Shown here one piece after another: positions 13,859 to 25,819 of a stretch of 64,000 nucleotides of DNA (position 1 is the first letter of the stretch; the number at the start of each line of letters is the position of its first letter). Source of the DNA: Bacteriovoracales bacterium. GTDB lineage: Bacteria; Bdellovibrionota; Bacteriovoracia; Bacteriovoracales; Bacteriovoracaceae. The position numbers and the translations under genes are program-made. The notes under the pieces are model-generated. The model made no database searches and was not told the DNA's origin. It worked only from the letters and a program-made list of their open reading frames with translations. The DNA lies in assembly GCA_030149295.1 (NCBI GenBank), contig JASBRV010000102.1:124001-188000 (forward strand), written 5' to 3'.

Positions 13859-14359
13859 ATGAAAATGAATGTCCTTCTTTTACTTACCCTTTTTCTGAGT
13901 CCATTAAAATTACAGGCCCGAGACATCCAAGTTCCTATTGGTGAGTTTCATTGCGCTCTCTCTTATGAAGAAAGCTATGCTATTAGCATAGAAGAGGGAG
14001 ATGATTTCCCCACTTTTGGTGGACACTATGATAACCCCATCAAAAGAGATGAGATTTTAAAGTTTAGATTTTCCTTAAATGAAAAAGATGAACCCCTCGC
14101 CTACGCTATCAACCCCGAGGCCCTTCCCAATTGGCTCCTAATTAGTGAACCATATTATGACAAACAAAACTCTTGGTCTTACAGGACAGAGACTGGAATC
14201 ATCTATCAGATCAATTGGAATGGAACCTGGTACTTTGGATCAAGCCTTGATCTAGAAACCAAAGCCTTTGATGGAAAGACCTTAAAAATGGATATCACAT
14301 TTCACGACAACGACTCAGTTGGAGAACTTCATCGTTGGGTTAAATGTCGCCTCATTTAG
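13859..14359 (+). CDS. Secreted protein, unknown function
   Basis: Signal peptide MKMNVLLLLTLFLSPLKLQA; start chosen at internal Met. Confidence 0.55.
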   Translation: MKMNVLLLLTLFLSPLKLQARDIQVPIGEFHCALSYEESYAISIEEGDDFPTFGGHYDNPIKRDEILKFRFSLNEKDEPLAYAINPEALPNWLLISEPYYDKQNSWSYRTETGIIYQINWNGTWYFGSSLDLETKAFDGKTLKMDITFHDNDSVGELHRWVKCRLI

Positions 14360-15371
14360 TCGAATAATCCTCATGGCCCGGTATGGTTTCGGTATCAGGT
14401 TCAAATATATTCACACCGAGATGAAGAACTCTTGTTCCGGCGTCACAATTAGGTCTGACATTTTTTCCAATCACAATCCCTGATTTATCGGCCCTAATTT
14501 CTTCTTTCACTTGACCAAAAACATCATAAACCTTGGCAATTAATTGGCCTTTTTTGATGACGTCGGCCAGACGAGGAAGGACATCGATAATGCCACCCTT
14601 TTTGGAGTAAATCCAATAACTATTTTCACAAATCACCGCGTCCGTAACCATATCCTCCACCTTTCCGGGAATCATTTTAAGATGGCGAAAAGTGTTCATA
14701 ATCCCTTCTAAGGTCTCATCAACCAGAGTATGTTGAAAGGCATTGGGATTTCCAATCTCAATGGTAATAGAGGGAATTCCATGTTCATTGGCCCAAGAGC
14801 GAAGTGTTCCTTCTTCATCAAATTTCTTTACAATGATCTGAGGATTTTGAAGATAAGCGAGAGTTCTCGTCTCTTCATTTTCAATATCGGCACGTAGGTA
14901 AAGACTATTCACCCTCCCATGACTGGCCGTATGTAGATCTAGGAGATAATCAAAATTTTTTACAATTTTATTCACAAAATAGTGAGCATATTGACCACTC
15001 GCGCTTCCATAGGAGCGCCCAGGCATAATTCGGTTGAGATCCACATTATCACTAAAGTTTCTCTGATTCATAAGATAACCGGGGACGTTACTAATAGGAA
15101 CCATAACCAGAGTGCCAGAGAGCTTATTGGGATCGATATCTTCTACTAAGCGAAAAATCGTTGAAATGCCGTTAAGCTCATTACCATGAAGGGCCGCCGT
15201 AAGACCTACCACAGGGCCTTTATTTTTACCTCGTACAGCAATAACAGGAACCCGCCAGGGAACGCCAAGGGAATTATCAGAGAGTTGAATTTGTAAACGA
15301 TGAACCTCACCTCTTTTAAGGCTAGAGAGCTTAAGCTCTTCTTTAGTTTTAATAACAATCACATCACTCAC
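14352..15371 (-). CDS. Succinylglutamate desuccinylase/aspartoacylase (AstE/AspA) family protein
   Basis: ALHGNELNGI, LLDLHTASHG and PSITIEIGNPN metal/catalytic motifs. Confidence 0.85.
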   Translation of the reverse strand: MSDVIVIKTKEELKLSSLKRGEVHRLQIQLSDNSLGVPWRVPVIAVRGKNKGPVVGLTAALHGNELNGISTIFRLVEDIDPNKLSGTLVMVPISNVPGYLMNQRNFSDNVDLNRIMPGRSYGSASGQYAHYFVNKIVKNFDYLLDLHTASHGRVNSLYLRADIENEETRTLAYLQNPQIIVKKFDEEGTLRSWANEHGIPSITIEIGNPNAFQHTLVDETLEGIMNTFRHLKMIPGKVEDMVTDAVICENSYWIYSKKGGIIDVLPRLADVIKKGQLIAKVYDVFGQVKEEIRADKSGIVIGKNVRPNCDAGTRVLHLGVNIFEPDTETIPGHEDYSTK

Positions 15372-16818
15372 TGGTTTTCTCCTTGAGCATAATCTCGCGG
15401 ATCAAAGATTGATCATCGTCGAGGTTTTGAAAGAGCTTAAGTCTAAATTGACCTTTTTTATTAATTAAATTTTGCGCCATCTTATCAATAGCAACAACTG
15501 TTAGAACTGTTTGAATATAACCTGAAATAAGATCATCCATACCAAGACCAAGACTATTGAAGTCTTTACGATCCATGAGCATGAGACGGCTCGGGTCACT
15601 GATGAAGTGATTCTCTGCAATTTTTTCTGACAAATTAGTTCCTAGTACATCCCAGCTATTTTCAGGATAGGTTTCCTTTAAAGGGGCACGGGCCTTTCGC
15701 GCATAAATAGAGCAAGGTCTAAAACCATTGGGGGAACTATAAACCATCATACGAAGATCAGCGATAAAGATATTTCCCTTCTTATTAGGAACAGTTCCAA
15801 TGTGAAAATACTTCCCTTGCGCACTGGTTGAACTCCAATTGTAATGACCTATCAGACTTTGTACAATAAATTTGTCATAGCTATGCTCTTCCTTCATAAA
15901 GTCTTCAAGCTCCCTTTCATTTGTTACGGTATAGACACCTTGACCAGCATTTGAATAAGGATTCTTAATTACGGCTTTACCGCCAAACTTTTGAACCCAA
16001 AGAGGAATCTCAACTTTCCCAACATCCTTTATGGTTTCGGGCATATTAATTTTTAGTCCAGAGAGAGCAAGTTCGGAGTTATAAAATTCATAGGCCTTAT
16101 TCGCGAGAAGCTTATTTCGGCCACCGGCCAAGCAAACGAGGGTTGAATTATAGATAAAAGTTTTTGTGGTCGGTGGAAGACGATTCCAGGGTTTTTGAGT
16201 GACGTAGCGAAAAGCGGCTCTTATGGGAGTTTCTTTGCCATTTTCCTTTAAAACCATCAAACCATTTTGAAATTCAATAAACTCCTCCCCACCATTAAAA
16301 TGAGGAATGAGATAAACATCCTCCCCCGTTAAATCGGCCAGGGTCTGAGCATAACCAGAAGTCTCCATATAATTTTTGTCATAAATAACGGCGAGCTTTC
16401 CTTCCGGCAGTCGTTTCTTCTTTAGGGCAGGCAAGAAAGAGTTCTCAATAAGAAGTTGATAGCCTCGATGCTCATCGGAATCACTACGAGGAGGCATGGA
16501 CTTTTGACCTGACGGACAAGAGTTGGTTTCAAGAACGACCATTTTTCTATTGCCTGATTCTGTGGTGACATAAAAAAGATCAGCCCCACCCCAGAAGAAA
16601 TGCTTGGATTGATAATTCAAAACCTCATTGAGAGCTTTTGTATCTACCTGGGGATTGAGATGGGCATAACGCTCAATGATTCTTTCATTACTCAAATTGA
16701 GAAAATAACTGACCATTGAATGAAGTTGAGAGTTGAGAGCTTTAGGATAGAAATGATTTTCTTGCTCGAAGTTATCGGGTTTTCTTAACTCTACCTTATT
16801 TTGAGTAATATCACTCAT
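15364..16818 (-). CDS. ATP-grasp-like ligase, unknown substrate
   Basis: GGKAVIKNPYSNAGQGVYTVTNERELEDFM, FIVQSLI, IADLRMMV pattern; 8-bp overlap with the AstE-like gene. Confidence 0.55.
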   Translation of the reverse strand: MSDITQNKVELRKPDNFEQENHFYPKALNSQLHSMVSYFLNLSNERIIERYAHLNPQVDTKALNEVLNYQSKHFFWGGADLFYVTTESGNRKMVVLETNSCPSGQKSMPPRSDSDEHRGYQLLIENSFLPALKKKRLPEGKLAVIYDKNYMETSGYAQTLADLTGEDVYLIPHFNGGEEFIEFQNGLMVLKENGKETPIRAAFRYVTQKPWNRLPPTTKTFIYNSTLVCLAGGRNKLLANKAYEFYNSELALSGLKINMPETIKDVGKVEIPLWVQKFGGKAVIKNPYSNAGQGVYTVTNERELEDFMKEEHSYDKFIVQSLIGHYNWSSTSAQGKYFHIGTVPNKKGNIFIADLRMMVYSSPNGFRPCSIYARKARAPLKETYPENSWDVLGTNLSEKIAENHFISDPSRLMLMDRKDFNSLGLGMDDLISGYIQTVLTVVAIDKMAQNLINKKGQFRLKLFQNLDDDQSLIREIMLKEKTSE

Positions 16819-16989
16819 TAGCATCTCCTTATTTTATAGAAGCAATTATCGCCGAGTTAGAAGACTTTTAACACCAAAAAACTTCAGACTATACCAAGTG
16901 TGTTAGACTCTAAATGTGGTTTGACCATCAAATTTTAATCCCAAAATCCTAAGTTAAAAGGGAGAAATACTGGGTTCTTAGCCTCAACG

Positions 16990-18551: not shown

Positions 18552-18594
18552 AAAGTGCTATGCACCTGTAAAAAAGTGCATGGCACCTTTTTTT
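18552..18594. repeat. Tandem AAAGTGC..TG.CACCT elements at gene 3' end
   Basis: AAAGTGCTATGCACCT (18552-18567) and AAAGTGCATGGCACCTTT (from 18573). Confidence 0.75.
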
Positions 18595-19304
18595 AATAGA
18601 TAATAATGACGAAAGAGAAAGTACATAGCTATAGCATTGAAGATATGCCAAAGCCCATGAAATTGAATGATGTGATTGGTGGGATCACAAGCCACTCTCT
18701 TAATATCCATAACCTGACAACTAATCGCAAGAACAAAGACAAAAAGTGTCAGGACGAAATTTTTCTTATCAAAGATGGCCTTTTTAATGATCATAAGCTT
18801 GCTAACGAGACCCACGATTATAATTAAGGCAATCGACAATTGAACGGGAATCCCAAGTTTTCGAAAAGCAAAGAAAATAAAACTAAAGGGAATAAAGCTT
18901 ACAAGATAGATGGGAAGTACCTTCTCTTTTTTTATTTTTCCTAGCCACTCCAGATTTCCAAGCATCAACAAACCAAAGAAGGCGTACATGCCAAGAAAGT
19001 CGATAAACTGGGTGAGAAAATTATTCGAAAGATGATAAAAGAGAGAGGTCACTCCCACAAAAATCATATTGATGCCGTAAAGTTCCAAGAAGCGAGACTT
19101 TTCCCCCTGTTGCTTTTTTAGCCAAAAATGAAGAAACAGCCCCACCAAAACAAAACCCAAATTAGACCAAGTATTTGCTGGTTCACTGATAAAGTGACAG
19201 ATAGTCTCTTCACAATACTTGATATCGGGAACGCCCCATCTTTCAGCATATTCATGCCAAAAGCAGCCTGCAGGATGAGGATTAGGAAGGTTAGAACCGA
19301 GCAT
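18558..19304 (-). CDS. CREST/alkaline ceramidase-like integral membrane protein
   Basis: Multiple TM segments; CEETICHFISEPANTWSNL, SLFYH, FIDFLGMY, IQFHGLWHIFNA. Confidence 0.75.
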   Translation of the reverse strand: MLGSNLPNPHPAGCFWHEYAERWGVPDIKYCEETICHFISEPANTWSNLGFVLVGLFLHFWLKKQQGEKSRFLELYGINMIFVGVTSLFYHLSNNFLTQFIDFLGMYAFFGLLMLGNLEWLGKIKKEKVLPIYLVSFIPFSFIFFAFRKLGIPVQLSIALIIIVGLVSKLMIIKKAIFDKKNFVLTLFVFVLAISCQVMDIKRVACDPTNHIIQFHGLWHIFNAIAMYFLFRHYYLLKKGAMHFFTGA

Positions 19305-19308
19305 TCTT

Positions 19309-20361
19309 CTATTTAAACTGATTGGCGAGCTGACCGCAAGCGGCCAATATTTCATCACCCTTTGTTACGCGCACCATGGTACGCACTTTTTCTTCTACCA
19401 ACCATTGTTTAAATTGCTCTACTCTTTCTTCGCTAGGTCGCAAATAGGGTGAACCTGGGTAAGGATTAAAAGGGATGAGGTTAACGAGACTTGGAAATTC
19501 TCCGATAATTTTCGCCAATTCTTTGGCATGATCTCTTGAATCGTTTTCATCCCCGAGCAGGAGGTATTCAAAATTGATAAGTTTTCTTTTGCCCCAAGGA
19601 AGTTTTCGTAAGACGGCGAAAATCTTTTCTATAGAGTAGGCCTTATTCATGGGAATCAGTTTGGATCTTTCTTCTTCAAAAGGAGAATGGAGACTAATGG
19701 CCAAATTGACAGGGGGAAGCTCATCCCAGCGCAAAAGCCCAGGAAGATGACCTACCGTAGAGACCGTAATCTGCTTAGGGCCTAAGGATAATCCCGGTGT
19801 TTCCATAAGATACTCAATAGAGCTTTTGAGGCCCTCAAAATTATGAAGAGGCTCCCCCTGGCCCATAAAGACAATATTAGGGGTCATCTTATGTTTGCCC
19901 TCACGATTTAAATCGCGCCAAACACTTAAATATTGGCCAACAATTTCGTGAGTCTCTAGGTTTCTCGTTAGCCCTTGAGTTCCCGTAAAACAAAAGGTGC
20001 AGGCCATGGCACAACCGACCTGAGAGCTTAAACATAAGGTGTATTTCTTATGAAAAGGAATCGCCACACTTTCAACTTTCCTACCATCCTCTAATTCAAA
20101 GAGATATTTGATGGTTCCATCACGTGAAGCCCTTCTTTCAAAAATTTTGGGAAGATTAAAGTCAAACTCATTTTTTAAGGAGGTAAGCACATGAGGGGCA
20201 ACCTCAGGATGCTCAGAGGGCGGGAGCCCATTGAAGGCCCCCGATACGATTCCTCTTTGCACTCTCTTATGGGGGCCTAGCCCCATCCCTTTTGAGGCCC
20301 ACCAAATCCCAAATTCATGGGAGGAGGTAGAATAAAAATGTCGCCTCTTTTCGCCTTTCAT
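19309..20361 (-). CDS. rlmN: 23S rRNA (adenine(2503)-C(2))-methyltransferase RlmN
   Basis: Radical SAM CAMACTFCFTGTQGLTRNL; NIVFMGQGEPLHNF; NLAISLHSP. Confidence 0.95.
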   Translation of the reverse strand: MKGEKRRHFYSTSSHEFGIWWASKGMGLGPHKRVQRGIVSGAFNGLPPSEHPEVAPHVLTSLKNEFDFNLPKIFERRASRDGTIKYLFELEDGRKVESVAIPFHKKYTLCLSSQVGCAMACTFCFTGTQGLTRNLETHEIVGQYLSVWRDLNREGKHKMTPNIVFMGQGEPLHNFEGLKSSIEYLMETPGLSLGPKQITVSTVGHLPGLLRWDELPPVNLAISLHSPFEEERSKLIPMNKAYSIEKIFAVLRKLPWGKRKLINFEYLLLGDENDSRDHAKELAKIIGEFPSLVNLIPFNPYPGSPYLRPSEERVEQFKQWLVEEKVRTMVRVTKGDEILAACGQLANQFK

Positions 20362-20415: not shown

Positions 20416-23400
20416 TTATAAAAAGGCCCCAACACTGTCCACACAACTCTCGGTGCGCACAAAATCTCCCGGCACATCCCTCACAGGAGTCACATTCGCC
20501 CTCTGGCGAGCGGCCTCGCGAGCGGCAGTAACCCTCTGCTCATGAGTCATAGTGTTAAGTTCATCAGCAGGCCCAGGAGTCCAAGCTCGCCCTTCACTAT
20601 TGATGGCCTCATCAGCACTTCTAGGCTCTACAGCTTGTCCCCAACCTGGTTGTTTGGGATGATTCGCTAATTTCTGATCAAGCGTCTCAAAGAAAATGGA
20701 TCGACTAACGAGATCAGTATCTGAAAGACCTTCCGCTAAAGCTGGACGGTAATCATTGATATCTAAGCCAAGCTCATCACAAAGCTTTGCAAGATCATCG
20801 TAGGCTTTCTGTGTATTTTGCAAATAGGCCATATGATCGACTTTTTGAACGGTCCCATCTAAAGGCGTGTCTTCGTTAAGGGCCTTATGAAGAAGCGCTC
20901 TCACTAATCTAATTTGAAGAGCACTTTCCATAGGATCTCTAGGCGCATTAAAAAGTCTAAATTCAGCCTTTCTGATATTGGGATTAACCCTAAAAGTTCG
21001 TCGCCATGGATCAGTTGGGGAGTTGATATCAAAATCATCTGTTAAAAACTCTTCAGGAATAACATCTTGATAATAAGCGCTCATATCGAGTTGGTTGTAA
21101 CGAGTCTTTCTTCCATAACGATTATTAAAGTATTGATTGTTATAAAGGAGCTTTTTAAGTTCGTCTTCTGAGCCATCAAAAGTGGCGAGCTGACGATTGA
21201 AGGTTGGATCAATGTCAATGGGCTCAGCAGATTTTAAACGATTCACATACTGAAACATCATGGAAATAATCCCTCTATGCTCATGAAAAAGGGCCATAAA
21301 ACGGGCGGCGGCTTTAGGGTTACCTTCAAAGGCTGCCAAGTCTACGTTAATGTGACCACCACCGTGCTTAATGGTAGGAAGAACACTATTTTCTTCAAAG
21401 GCCTTATAGACCGCTTCCATTTCTTCCACAGCAGGAACAAATTTAGGGGTAACCAGCTCAATCGAACCACCACGAACAGAATCTTCAACAATCGAGCCTG
21501 TTTCATCGTAAGAGCGACCAACACCGTCCCACTCAATGACCCATTTTCTTTCTTGAGGATCTCGGATTTCATAGGCCACTTCAAGACCATGACCATGGCC
21601 GCCAGCATCCACAACTTCGCTCGCTTCTCCTTCTCCCCCTAAATTTCGTAGCAGTGATTCGGCCACATTCTTAAGAACAGTTTTTCTCTCATCCATAGTC
21701 AGATCAATTCGTGTTTGGAGCCATGCCTTTTTATTATCGGCAAGCCTAGCATCCGTGTACTGAGCATCAAGTGCGAGAGGAAATTTACCAGAGTATTCAA
21801 TCCCTAGGTCGATATTATTGACATCAACCGCATTGGCAATTACTGGTCTTCCCTCTGGAGGAGTAAAATGTAAAATGTCGGGAGTTGATTCGGCCATTCT
21901 TCTAGGCTTAATGTAATTCCTTAGCTCCTCCCCTAATTTAGTCGACTTTACCCAAGAGCGCAGAAGACTCTTAATATCTGCTTTCATCACATCACCACTT
22001 CCTTCCAAAGCGGCAACCTGTAAAAAGAAGTCTTTTGAAAGAGATTTAATAAAGCGTTTTTTAGAGGCACTAATAAAAGGAAGGTTCTCATCGGTCCAAT
22101 TCCAAAAGGGCAGCATATAGCTGTGCTTAAATCTTCCATTTGAAATATTGGTAATAGCCGCTTGAGCTTTCTCTTCTGGAATATCAAATCTTTCGGCGAT
22201 TTCAGAAGCACTTGGTCCCGAATAACCATTACCAGTAAAGAGGGAATAATCGTCAATATCAGCTAAACCACTAAAGTCATTGGTAGCGACTCGGGCAGCG
22301 AGGGCGGTTTGATAAAATCTTGCGGCACGAATATCTTTCGTCCCTGCTCTAAATTCAACCCCATGATTGTCACTTCCCCAACGAGTACTTTCTAACCGGA
22401 TAACACCACGACCAGAGTTGAGATTTTTAAGGGTCTGATCGGGAAGAACATCTTTAAAGCTGGCAGACTCAATTCCAGTTCCCCCCTGAATACCATCGGA
22501 AATGATCAAAGCCTGAATGGCACGATAGAGTTCAGAGAGTTTTCCTTCATCGAGATTAGGGTGGCGTTTAAAAACCATCCGTTGATGCCCAGGAGCTTGA
22601 AACAGCTTACCGGCATTTTCAAGTGATTTTCTAAACCACATAACAAACTCTTCAAACTCTCCATAAGTTTGAACAATATTGAAGTTGATTTCCCAACCGA
22701 CTGATGTGCCATGGGCATCGCGCACATATTTTTCAGCTACACCAAAATTCGCTACCCAACTTGTGTAACTGGATGCTCTTTTAATATTTGTACTGTCACT
22801 TAGTCCCGGTAAGGAGCCTTTAAACATTTTCATGCGCACAGAAGGCTTGATGAAAGTTAACGGTTTGCCTTCCGTCATATCCAAAAACTCACCCCATTTA
22901 GCAACAAGTTCTTCGGCCGTGGCATTTTGAAAATCAATACCTCTAAAAGCATCGACATTAATCGTTTTGGGATTTCCTTCAACATCAACTACATCTCGGG
23001 CCAGGTCAACAACCACCCCTTCATCATTACGATAGGTCCTATAGCCATTGGCATTTTTTACATAGTTTTCAAAGAAGTCTGACAGAAAGGCCTTCTGACT
23101 TTCTTCTGGCATCCCCTGTACCATTCTTTTTAGATCTTCTGCTGGAGGGGTCATTACCCGGGTAATAAGACCAGATGAGGCTTCCTTCTCAGCACCCCAA
23201 GTCACTCCGGCCTCAAGCCCATCGATGGCCAGATTTCCATCAACCATAACGGCTTTAGCGTTGTAACTCGTTGCCGACTCCTGAAGATCAGCATAAACAG
23301 AATAAGCACTACGGGTTTCCTCTTCTGCGACCCCACGAAAAGAATTGTAAGTACAACTCTCTAAAGTTAGCGCCCCCACCATCATGGGAATAAGAATTGT

Positions 23401-23427
23401 TGCCGCTTTTTTGTTCCAGTAATTCAT
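20416..23427 (-). CDS. Exported protein with two amidoligase (GCS/COOH-NH2 ligase-fold)-like regions
   Basis: N-terminal signal/possible lipobox (LTLESC); C-terminal LGIEYS, GLEVAYE, GGSIELVTPKF, KHGGGHINVDL, KAEFRLFNAP; N-terminal GHQRMVF and HGVEFRAGTKD in the same order. Confidence 0.5.
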   Translation of the reverse strand: MNYWNKKAATILIPMMVGALTLESCTYNSFRGVAEEETRSAYSVYADLQESATSYNAKAVMVDGNLAIDGLEAGVTWGAEKEASSGLITRVMTPPAEDLKRMVQGMPEESQKAFLSDFFENYVKNANGYRTYRNDEGVVVDLARDVVDVEGNPKTINVDAFRGIDFQNATAEELVAKWGEFLDMTEGKPLTFIKPSVRMKMFKGSLPGLSDSTNIKRASSYTSWVANFGVAEKYVRDAHGTSVGWEINFNIVQTYGEFEEFVMWFRKSLENAGKLFQAPGHQRMVFKRHPNLDEGKLSELYRAIQALIISDGIQGGTGIESASFKDVLPDQTLKNLNSGRGVIRLESTRWGSDNHGVEFRAGTKDIRAARFYQTALAARVATNDFSGLADIDDYSLFTGNGYSGPSASEIAERFDIPEEKAQAAITNISNGRFKHSYMLPFWNWTDENLPFISASKKRFIKSLSKDFFLQVAALEGSGDVMKADIKSLLRSWVKSTKLGEELRNYIKPRRMAESTPDILHFTPPEGRPVIANAVDVNNIDLGIEYSGKFPLALDAQYTDARLADNKKAWLQTRIDLTMDERKTVLKNVAESLLRNLGGEGEASEVVDAGGHGHGLEVAYEIRDPQERKWVIEWDGVGRSYDETGSIVEDSVRGGSIELVTPKFVPAVEEMEAVYKAFEENSVLPTIKHGGGHINVDLAAFEGNPKAAARFMALFHEHRGIISMMFQYVNRLKSAEPIDIDPTFNRQLATFDGSEDELKKLLYNNQYFNNRYGRKTRYNQLDMSAYYQDVIPEEFLTDDFDINSPTDPWRRTFRVNPNIRKAEFRLFNAPRDPMESALQIRLVRALLHKALNEDTPLDGTVQKVDHMAYLQNTQKAYDDLAKLCDELGLDINDYRPALAEGLSDTDLVSRSIFFETLDQKLANHPKQPGWGQAVEPRSADEAINSEGRAWTPGPADELNTMTHEQRVTAAREAARQRANVTPVRDVPGDFVRTESCVDSVGAFL

Positions 23428-23445: not shown

Positions 23446-24468
23446 TTATTTAAAAAGACATTTATTAGCTTTAATATTTTCAAATTCGTCAGCAAGGCTT
23501 GCATCATTCGCAACCTTGGCTTCAAGGTAGCGATAAAAAGCGGCTTTCTTACCCACTTCTTTCTTTTCCTTAGCATCTTTTGCAACAGCTCTAAGCATTC
23601 TTGACCAACCCTGAAGCTCGACCTCATTTAAGTCAGCACTAAAGAGACGCCACAATTGATGAGAGTTATTGGGATCGAGAACATTCACTAATCCCCTAGC
23701 ATCAGGCTTTCTTGAGACCTCAACAATCGCCTCAAAAAGTTCTTTTTGAGCAGGTGATCCATGTTTGGGAATAGAGAGAAAAAGAGCGAAAACTTTTTCA
23801 TCTTCGGAAGGAAGTTCACTCAAGTAGTTTAACTTTTGAGTGGTCAGTTTTTGAGTGCGAAGATTATTCTTAATGTATTTAACGACTTCTTTTGGTTTTC
23901 TTGGCACCACACTTTCTAAGATATACCTCGTTTTCTCATCGGCGACTTGATCGTAAGTAAAACGAAAACCGTTCCTAGCAAGAGGCCCGGAAATACAACT
24001 AGCACAGGCGAGAGCTAAAGAATTATCAGCTCCATAACGACTTGCCATGTAAACGAGTCCGTTTACAACTTCTACAAATTCGGACTTAGTAAAATCGCGC
24101 TCCCTTTCGGAAAGAAGCACCAAGAGCCTTCTTTTTAAACGACCATCAGCACCTGAATTGATAGACCTAAGTGACGAAGCCAGCTCCGTTCGAGAAGGAG
24201 TATTGGAGCCCGTAAGATTTTTAAAAGCATGACCAATGACTTGCTCAACTTTAGAGGCACTCCCTCCTGAGAGCCCTGAAGCCTCAATGGCGGCTTTCCT
24301 ACCAGCCGTACTAAGAATCATATCTAGAGCCCTAGCAGTACCAGAGCCCAAAGACTTTTGAGCATCTTTGATATTGGTCGGACTAAAATCTAGATCTTTT
24401 GCACCTACTGGATGCAAGAGCACACACAAGCTTAAACAAGCACCAAAAACATAGTTTGCTTTTTTCAT
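23446..24468 (-). CDS. Secreted helical protein, unknown function
   Basis: Signal peptide MKKANYVFGACLSLCVLLHPVGA; helix-rich composition. Confidence 0.6.
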   Translation of the reverse strand: MKKANYVFGACLSLCVLLHPVGAKDLDFSPTNIKDAQKSLGSGTARALDMILSTAGRKAAIEASGLSGGSASKVEQVIGHAFKNLTGSNTPSRTELASSLRSINSGADGRLKRRLLVLLSERERDFTKSEFVEVVNGLVYMASRYGADNSLALACASCISGPLARNGFRFTYDQVADEKTRYILESVVPRKPKEVVKYIKNNLRTQKLTTQKLNYLSELPSEDEKVFALFLSIPKHGSPAQKELFEAIVEVSRKPDARGLVNVLDPNNSHQLWRLFSADLNEVELQGWSRMLRAVAKDAKEKKEVGKKAAFYRYLEAKVANDASLADEFENIKANKCLFK

Positions 24469-24688
24469 TGGCCTTCCTTTTTTCTCACCAAATAAGGGGG
24501 TCTTTTTTATGCACAACACACTCTCGTATCGGCTTGAGACTCAAATTGCTTGACAAAAACCATCAATTTTCTTGGATTTTATTGTAAAATCGACAACTTA
24601 ACACATTTTGTCGTGACGTTACTTAACCTGACTGATTCAATATCCTAATAGAAATCTGACATTAAAGACCATTATCAAGGATCGATTT

Positions 24689-25819
24689 ATGAAGTTTATC
24701 ACCCTAGTGCTGCTGCTCCTTTGGGGCCAAAATTCGATGGCGGCCAAGCTGATTTACGGAAAAAAAAGTGCCAACCCTGGTGAATTAAGTGAAAAAGAAC
24801 TCTCCCCGGTTATGACCAAGGCCCTAGTCCCTGAAGAAAGTGACTTTGAAGGCGGCTTCAACATGTGGGTTCCCTACGTTATGCCTACCCCTTACCAAGA
24901 AAATGCAGGCTCATGCCTTTTCATGAGTCACACTGCTGTTGCAGAAACTCTTGTTAATGAAAGAAGAAATCGTCTCGGTTACCCCAATATTGATCTTTCC
25001 GAGCGCTATTTCATGAACCTCTCAAAAGCAGATATTGGTGACAATCTCATTGATAACTGGATTACAGATACAATCTATCGTCTTAATGCGACTAAGAAAA
25101 TGTATCTCAACCGTGACTTTCCTTATATGAAAGGCTGGTACAGACCAATAGGAAATGGCCAAAGAGTTTTTGCCCAACCAAACGAGCAGGGCGCTTATTA
25201 TGGTGTGCGTGCCAACTGGGTCGTTGATCTCGACAGTCTTGCCAAAAAGCCTTCTTACGATCTCCCTACTTTTAAAAGGGATATTCTTTTTGAAGATCCT
25301 AAAGGCAATAGATGGAATGTTGGTACAGCTCCAAAAGACATTGTTCAAAGAGTGAAGAACGCCTTAAATACAAAAAAAGGTCCCGTCACCGTCATCTATA
25401 ATCACACTGGTTTTTGGCATGCAGTGATGATTGCTGGTTATAATGACAATATTACTAATCATGGATGCCCTTTTGTATCGGATTACCCTCTCCAGATGAG
25501 AGAGAGAGCCGATCAGATTCGAGAAGAGGCCAACAATCAAAGCGATCAAGATGAAAGAGATCGTTTAGAGAGAAAAGCTCGTCTATTTGAGCGAAGAGCA
25601 CAAATGGTAGAAACTGGATTTCAGCAAAATGGAGGCTGTTCAAATAAAGGGGCTTTTTATGTAAGAGACTCTATCAATCCAGATCCTTCCATGCCTCTCT
25701 ATGACTATGACCCCAATCAAACGGGAGAAGAGCAACACTTAAACCCCAGCATTATTTTGCGTGAGTACGAGTGGCTAGAGCAACTTGCTAACCATGTGAT
25801 GCACATTTACGTCGATTAG
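24689..25819 (+). CDS. Secreted papain-like cysteine protease-related protein
   Basis: Signal peptide; QENAGSCLFMSH (Cys region), GPVTVIYNHTGFWHAVMIAGYND (His region), GAFYVRDSI. Confidence 0.65.
   Translation: MKFITLVLLLLWGQNSMAAKLIYGKKSANPGELSEKELSPVMTKALVPEESDFEGGFNMWVPYVMPTPYQENAGSCLFMSHTAVAETLVNERRNRLGYPNIDLSERYFMNLSKADIGDNLIDNWITDTIYRLNATKKMYLNRDFPYMKGWYRPIGNGQRVFAQPNEQGAYYGVRANWVVDLDSLAKKPSYDLPTFKRDILFEDPKGNRWNVGTAPKDIVQRVKNALNTKKGPVTVIYNHTGFWHAVMIAGYNDNITNHGCPFVSDYPLQMRERADQIREEANNQSDQDERDRLERKARLFERRAQMVETGFQQNGGCSNKGAFYVRDSINPDPSMPLYDYDPNQTGEEQHLNPSIILREYEWLEQLANHVMHIYVD

Follow-up and report, generated by a model that had tools for sequence, protein, structure and literature searches.

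The window, the whole stretch of 64,000 nucleotides of Bacteriovoracales DNA analysed here, carries on its reverse strand an intact open reading frame with an ATG start, which encodes a protein of 1003 amino acids. Its features and those of neighbouring genes are collected in Table 1. The C-terminal half of the protein matches the Pfam family Amidoligase_2 (PF12224) with 27.4 bits, above the curated cut-off of 22, and this family has no other match anywhere in the same genome. Amidoligase_2 was also matched in 35 of the 36 close homologs (at E-values of up to 1), and profile–profile comparison with hhalign aligned the C-terminal half with other Bdellovibrionota Amidoligase_2 proteins (E 6e-10, probability 96.6). 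An earlier note on this DNA had quoted amidoligase-like motifs from both halves, and all are present: LGIEYS (541-546), GLEVAYE (614-620), WVIEWDG (629-635), GGSIELVTPKF (653-663), KHGGGHINVDL (687-697) and KAEFRLFNAP (820-829) in the C-terminal half, and WEINF (245-249) and PGHQRMVF (279-286) in the N-terminal half, where GVEFRAGTK occupies residues 356-364. For the C-terminal half, the Pfam score, the homolog matches and the profile E-value place this likeness beyond chance. The N-terminal half was not matched by the Pfam Amidoligase_2 model, and its hhalign alignment with canonical Amidoligase_2 profiles was not significant. NCBIfam and PHROGs offered no family for the 1003-residue protein, and no sequence relatives were found among solved structures, one scan giving chance-level matches only. 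No RNA elements were found, and promoter and terminator scans returned results no better than those from shuffled sequences.

Table 1. Features of the predicted tandem amidoligase-fold gene and its neighbours (window positions; residue numbers refer to the 1003-residue protein).
Feature	Position	Strand	Basis or observation
Exported-type tandem amidoligase-fold protein	20416..23427	-	ORF, Amidoligase_2, AlphaFold, Foldseek
Lipoprotein-type signal sequence	23353..23427	-	residues 1-25; lipobox LESC, Cys25; read from sequence
N-terminal GS/amidoligase-fold half (predicted)	22228..23310	-	residues 40-400, core ~60-385; AlphaFold, Foldseek
GAEKE, GxExE motif of N-terminal half	23182..23196	-	residues 78-82; E80, K81, E82 in 57/57
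W245-E246, N-terminal half	22690..22695	-	46/46 homologs aligning there
H281, GHQ motif, N-terminal half	22585..22587	-	57/57 homologs
E358-x-R360, N-terminal half	22348..22356	-	57/57 homologs
C-terminal GS/amidoligase-fold half (predicted)	20698..21864	-	residues 522-910; Pfam Amidoligase_2 585-787; hhalign
E544, C-terminal half (GIEYS)	21796..21798	-	56/56; second Glu of GxExE is Ser/Thr
W629-x-x-E632-W633-D634, C-terminal half	21526..21543	-	W629, E632, W633, D634 in 56/56
E657, C-terminal half (SIELVTPK)	21457..21459	-	56/56 homologs
H692-x-N694, C-terminal half	21346..21354	-	H692 55/55, N694 54/55
E822-x-R824, C-terminal half	20956..20964	-	54/54 homologs
Upstream partner gene, exported-type protein	23446..24519	-	18 bases before amidoligase gene; same neighbour in 20 loci
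Exported-type papain-like peptidase gene, divergent	24689..25819	+	Peptidase_C1 family profile match; same neighbour in clade A

The mature protein was modelled with AlphaFold2 from 36 sequences (mean pLDDT 85.3, pTM 0.86), and, since the chain has two domains, a pTM of this size suggests that its halves pack in a defined way. The N-terminal half folded alone (residues 40-400, 46 sequences) gave a pLDDT of 94.1 and a pTM of 0.89. When the full model was compared with solved structures by Foldseek, glutamine synthetases ranked first (probability 0.99), and the list also included Dop, PafA, YbdK, GmaS and guanidino kinases; for the N-terminal half alone, glutamine synthetases were again best, followed by arginine kinases. 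The leading matches all fall within one superfamily, at modest E-values (best about 5e-3 to 5.9e-3) and low TM-scores. When viral models were searched, amidoligases made up most of the top matches that carry a name (best E 7.7e-5). Of the outcomes that would have counted against the earlier note, the lack of a GCS/GS-like barrel in either half and a lack of correspondence between the two halves, neither was seen. Both halves are predicted to adopt the glutamine synthetase (GS)/amidoligase fold, the N-terminal half as recognised by Foldseek and the C-terminal half by Pfam and hhalign, with E-values that are modest.

The predicted strands and helices follow the same order in both halves, which makes a duplication at the level of the fold likely. 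The first strands correspond (75-83 with GAEKE, and 541-548 with GIEYS), as do strands 245-249 (WEINF) and 655-659 (SIELV), strand 281-287, which starts at H281, and strand 693-696, directly after H692, and strands 354-359 and 820-823 at the respective E358-x-R360 and E822-x-R824 sites. Helices are paired at 108-122/578-595, 255-268/667-679 and 366-382/832-851, and each half contains a 22-residue helix (294-315 and 704-725). Profile comparison of the two halves with hhalign found nothing with the 36-member alignment and reached a probability of 1.6 (E 0.03) with broader sets, the top alignment pairing GAEKE with GIEYS. The internal duplication proposed in the earlier note therefore finds support in the order of predicted structural elements and none in the profile comparison, whose blindness to it would suit an old duplication or a joining of halves from distant relatives. 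The start given for the N-terminal domain in that note needs correction: rather than spanning residues 190-385, it extends over about 60-385, with GAEKE (78-82) in its first strand.

Residue conservation was counted over up to 57 homologs (Table 1). In the glutamine synthetase fold, metal and nucleotide phosphates are bound at the positions that correspond to E-x-E, E, H and E-x-R. In the N-terminal half, GxExE, E, H and ExR are present and the D of W..D is not conserved; judged from its aligned residues, this half, which Pfam misses, holds the complete E-x-E/E/H/E-x-R set. In the C-terminal half, the signature (GxExE, W..D, E, GGHxH, ExR) is complete but for the second Glu, replaced by Ser or Thr, and the second His, replaced by Asn; R730, R773 and K774 are likewise invariant among homologs. 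Because the catalytic-type residues are essentially invariant in both halves, neither half looks dead. Comparison with a sister species, in which synonymous sites are nearly saturated, indicates purifying selection on both.

The N-terminus of the protein comprises a charged start, a hydrophobic stretch and the lipobox-type sequence LESC with Cys25. Among homologs the residues vary and the design stays, ending either in the Cys of a lipobox or in a site like those cut by signal peptidase, and about two fifths have a lipobox-type match. A hydrophobicity score did not separate the family (40/57) from background open reading frames (226/475), so the case for export rests on the signal design as read by eye. 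On this reading, family members nearly always appear to be export-type at the N-terminus, in agreement with the export suggested in the earlier note.

Carriers of the family account for 36 of the 129 genomes of the class and, by profile, 64 of 369 in the phylum as a whole (a few of them on short or weak matches), spread over at least eight family-level groups. Three size classes occur: proteins of about 1000 residues; proteins of about 1800-2100 residues with C-terminal extensions, which match HEAT repeats (HEAT_2) in some members; and, in a subfamily that has diverged further, proteins of about 880-965 residues. One narrow scan of public genomes, which was also the coverage given to genomes outside the phylum, returned two named matches, one in a Halobacteriovorax MAG and the other in an uncultured Bacteriovoracaceae MAG. 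A viral or plasmid origin was considered and rejected after viral contigs, phages and plasmids had yielded no relatives. Searches of open-licence papers for Amidoligase_2, amidoligases in Bdellovibrio and secreted amidoligases turned up no account of the family.

In the window's clade, the amidoligase gene follows the partner gene and adjoins the divergent gene for a papain-like peptidase, relatives of which retain QxxAG[ST]C and WH. At the locus of a distant homolog, too, the amidoligase gene is immediately followed by a member of the papain-like family, and in the short subfamily a Peptidase_S8-family gene occupies the directly downstream position in 6 of 11 loci. The family thus often adjoins exported papain-like or subtilisin-like peptidases, and the two arrangements and two peptidase classes imply an association that exceeds shared ancestry of one locus. 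The partner protein has no Pfam or NCBIfam family; it shows a signal-type N-terminus, and a conserved C-x-x-C pair and a Cys near the C-terminus recur across about 20 loci. The idea that the partner is HEAT-like and became fused into the extensions of the 1800-2100-residue homologs was dropped, as hhalign gave it no support and only the extensions match HEAT_2. Elsewhere in the window, two neighbouring genes that overlap by a few bases (14352-16824, reverse strand) encode an AstE/AspA-type deacylase and a protein with a weak match to ATP-grasp, and possibly form a pair of peptide ligase and hydrolase; this pair is not kept beside the amidoligase gene in relatives. A ceramidase-family membrane protein (PF05875, 71 bits), here in a bacterium, is encoded at 18558-19358 on the reverse strand.

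We conclude that these proteins form a real, exported-type, tandem amidoligase-fold family, for which we infer a function from fold and context. The interpretation that we favour, tentatively and at somewhat less than an even chance when taken as a whole, is that of an exported tandem enzyme that forms or remodels amide bonds alongside exported peptidases. The protein would be exported and anchored in the membrane, with two packed GS/amidoligase-fold domains bearing residues of metal- and phosphate-binding type; working with exported papain-like or subtilisin-like peptidases beyond the bacterium's own cytoplasm, it would make or remodel amide bonds, the substrates being peptides or components of the envelope; and, if it depends on ATP as its relatives do, this ATP would need to be supplied by prey under digestion. 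Within this scheme, amide-bond chemistry in partnership with peptidases is what the fold and the conserved neighbourhood most likely point to, and we infer catalysis, ATP use and a direction towards prey. The interpretation draws on the above-threshold Amidoligase_2 match, the GS-superfamily matches of the whole model and N-terminal half, the invariant catalytic-type residues and purifying selection in both halves, the export-type N-termini, the exported peptidases adjacent in two unrelated arrangements, and the pairing of Amidoligase_2 with ATP-grasp in other exported proteins of the phylum. Set against it are the loss from the C-terminal half of the second glutamate in GxExE and of the second histidine in HxH, the modest Foldseek E-values, and the fact that several carrier lineages are known from genomes alone. 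ATP poses a further difficulty: amidoligase-fold relatives are ATP-dependent, and are normally cytosolic because of this need, and ATP is not expected outside the cytoplasm.

This difficulty would be eased if the protein were instead an exported amidase, deamidase or isopeptidase that uses the GS fold as Dop does and digests protein or peptidoglycan cross-links with the neighbouring peptidases. Dop is among the structural matches, the gene neighbours are peptidases and the metal ligands of the C-terminal half are altered; however, in the N-terminal half all the ligands of ATP-using relatives are retained, and Dop also requires a bound nucleotide, and we regard hydrolysis as rather unlikely. 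The expected lack of ATP outside the cell would also suit a non-catalytic protein whose two amidoligase folds bind substrate, or act as a scaffold or partner for the closely associated exported peptidases, as would the HEAT-type C-terminal extensions of some long homologs. Against such a role, the catalytic-type residues of both halves are invariant across very divergent homologs, which makes a scaffold that has lost catalysis the less likely of the two options raised in the earlier note, the other being a modifier directed at prey or host; we consider it a doubtful explanation. Finally, the N-terminal signals could have been misread, and the enzyme could be cytosolic, or anchored in the inner membrane and turned towards the cytoplasm. 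Its canonical relatives reside in the cytosol, the hydrophobicity score does not single out the family, and lipoboxes of the LESC or LYNC kind fall short of the ideal, but the N-terminal design is kept across lineages despite sequence change, the partner and peptidases also look exported, and cysteines are few, all of which render this highly improbable.

To return to an exported amide-bond-forming enzyme, the title of a paper listed among the references of PMC4834554 (Ruby and McCabe 1986) reports an ATP transport system in Bdellovibrio, which would allow prey as a possible source of ATP. A more specific proposal, which we hold to be unlikely, is that a Bdellovibrionota tandem ligase uses prey-released ATP and, together with exported peptidases, cross-links, caps or tags peptides of the prey or bdelloplast envelope. 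If this were true, the exported Amidoligase_2/ATP-grasp fusions of the phylum would represent further ligation chemistry outside the cytoplasm. More broadly, a phylum-wide, exported-type, duplicated fold that keeps its active sites and sits beside exported peptidases points to new chemistry outside the bacterium's own cytoplasm, perhaps in prey, and makes of these hypothetical proteins an enzyme family that can be tested.

Among known systems, the amidoligases in question were reportedly defined in a 2009 review by Iyer et al. The C-terminal half resembles Amidoligase_2 (PF12224) in its above-threshold score, profile match and shared motif order, whereas the protein as a whole differs in having two domains per chain, in being exported-type, in an N-terminal half that the model does not recognise, and in the replacement of the second Glu of GxExE in the C-terminal half by Ser or Thr. 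Glutamine synthetase, Dop/PafA and YbdK work in the cytosol and have a single catalytic barrel in each chain; according to Foldseek, their structures have the superfamily fold in common with the protein described here, at an identity of about 10% and low TM-scores. By eye, about 18 of the 28 Amidoligase_2 loci read in the phylum have export-type N-termini. Six of these proteins join Amidoligase_2 to ATP-grasp (R2K clade), including L145 from the window's genus, which is lipoprotein-like with the domain order ATP-grasp, amidoligase, ATP-grasp; twelve others have a single amidoligase domain. The eight canonical amidoligases of 320 residues have no export-type N-terminus, and in two genomes Amidoligase_2 lies behind a superfamily-2 helicase-like domain, in an apparently unrelated form. 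The exported-type Amidoligase_2/ATP-grasp proteins suggest that ligase folds bound for export recur in the phylum. With other exported-type proteins of this kind (L137, L153, L138 and L145), the family shares the N-terminus and the Amidoligase_2 domain; those proteins, some with ATP-grasp, differ in carrying a single amidoligase domain in place of the tandem.
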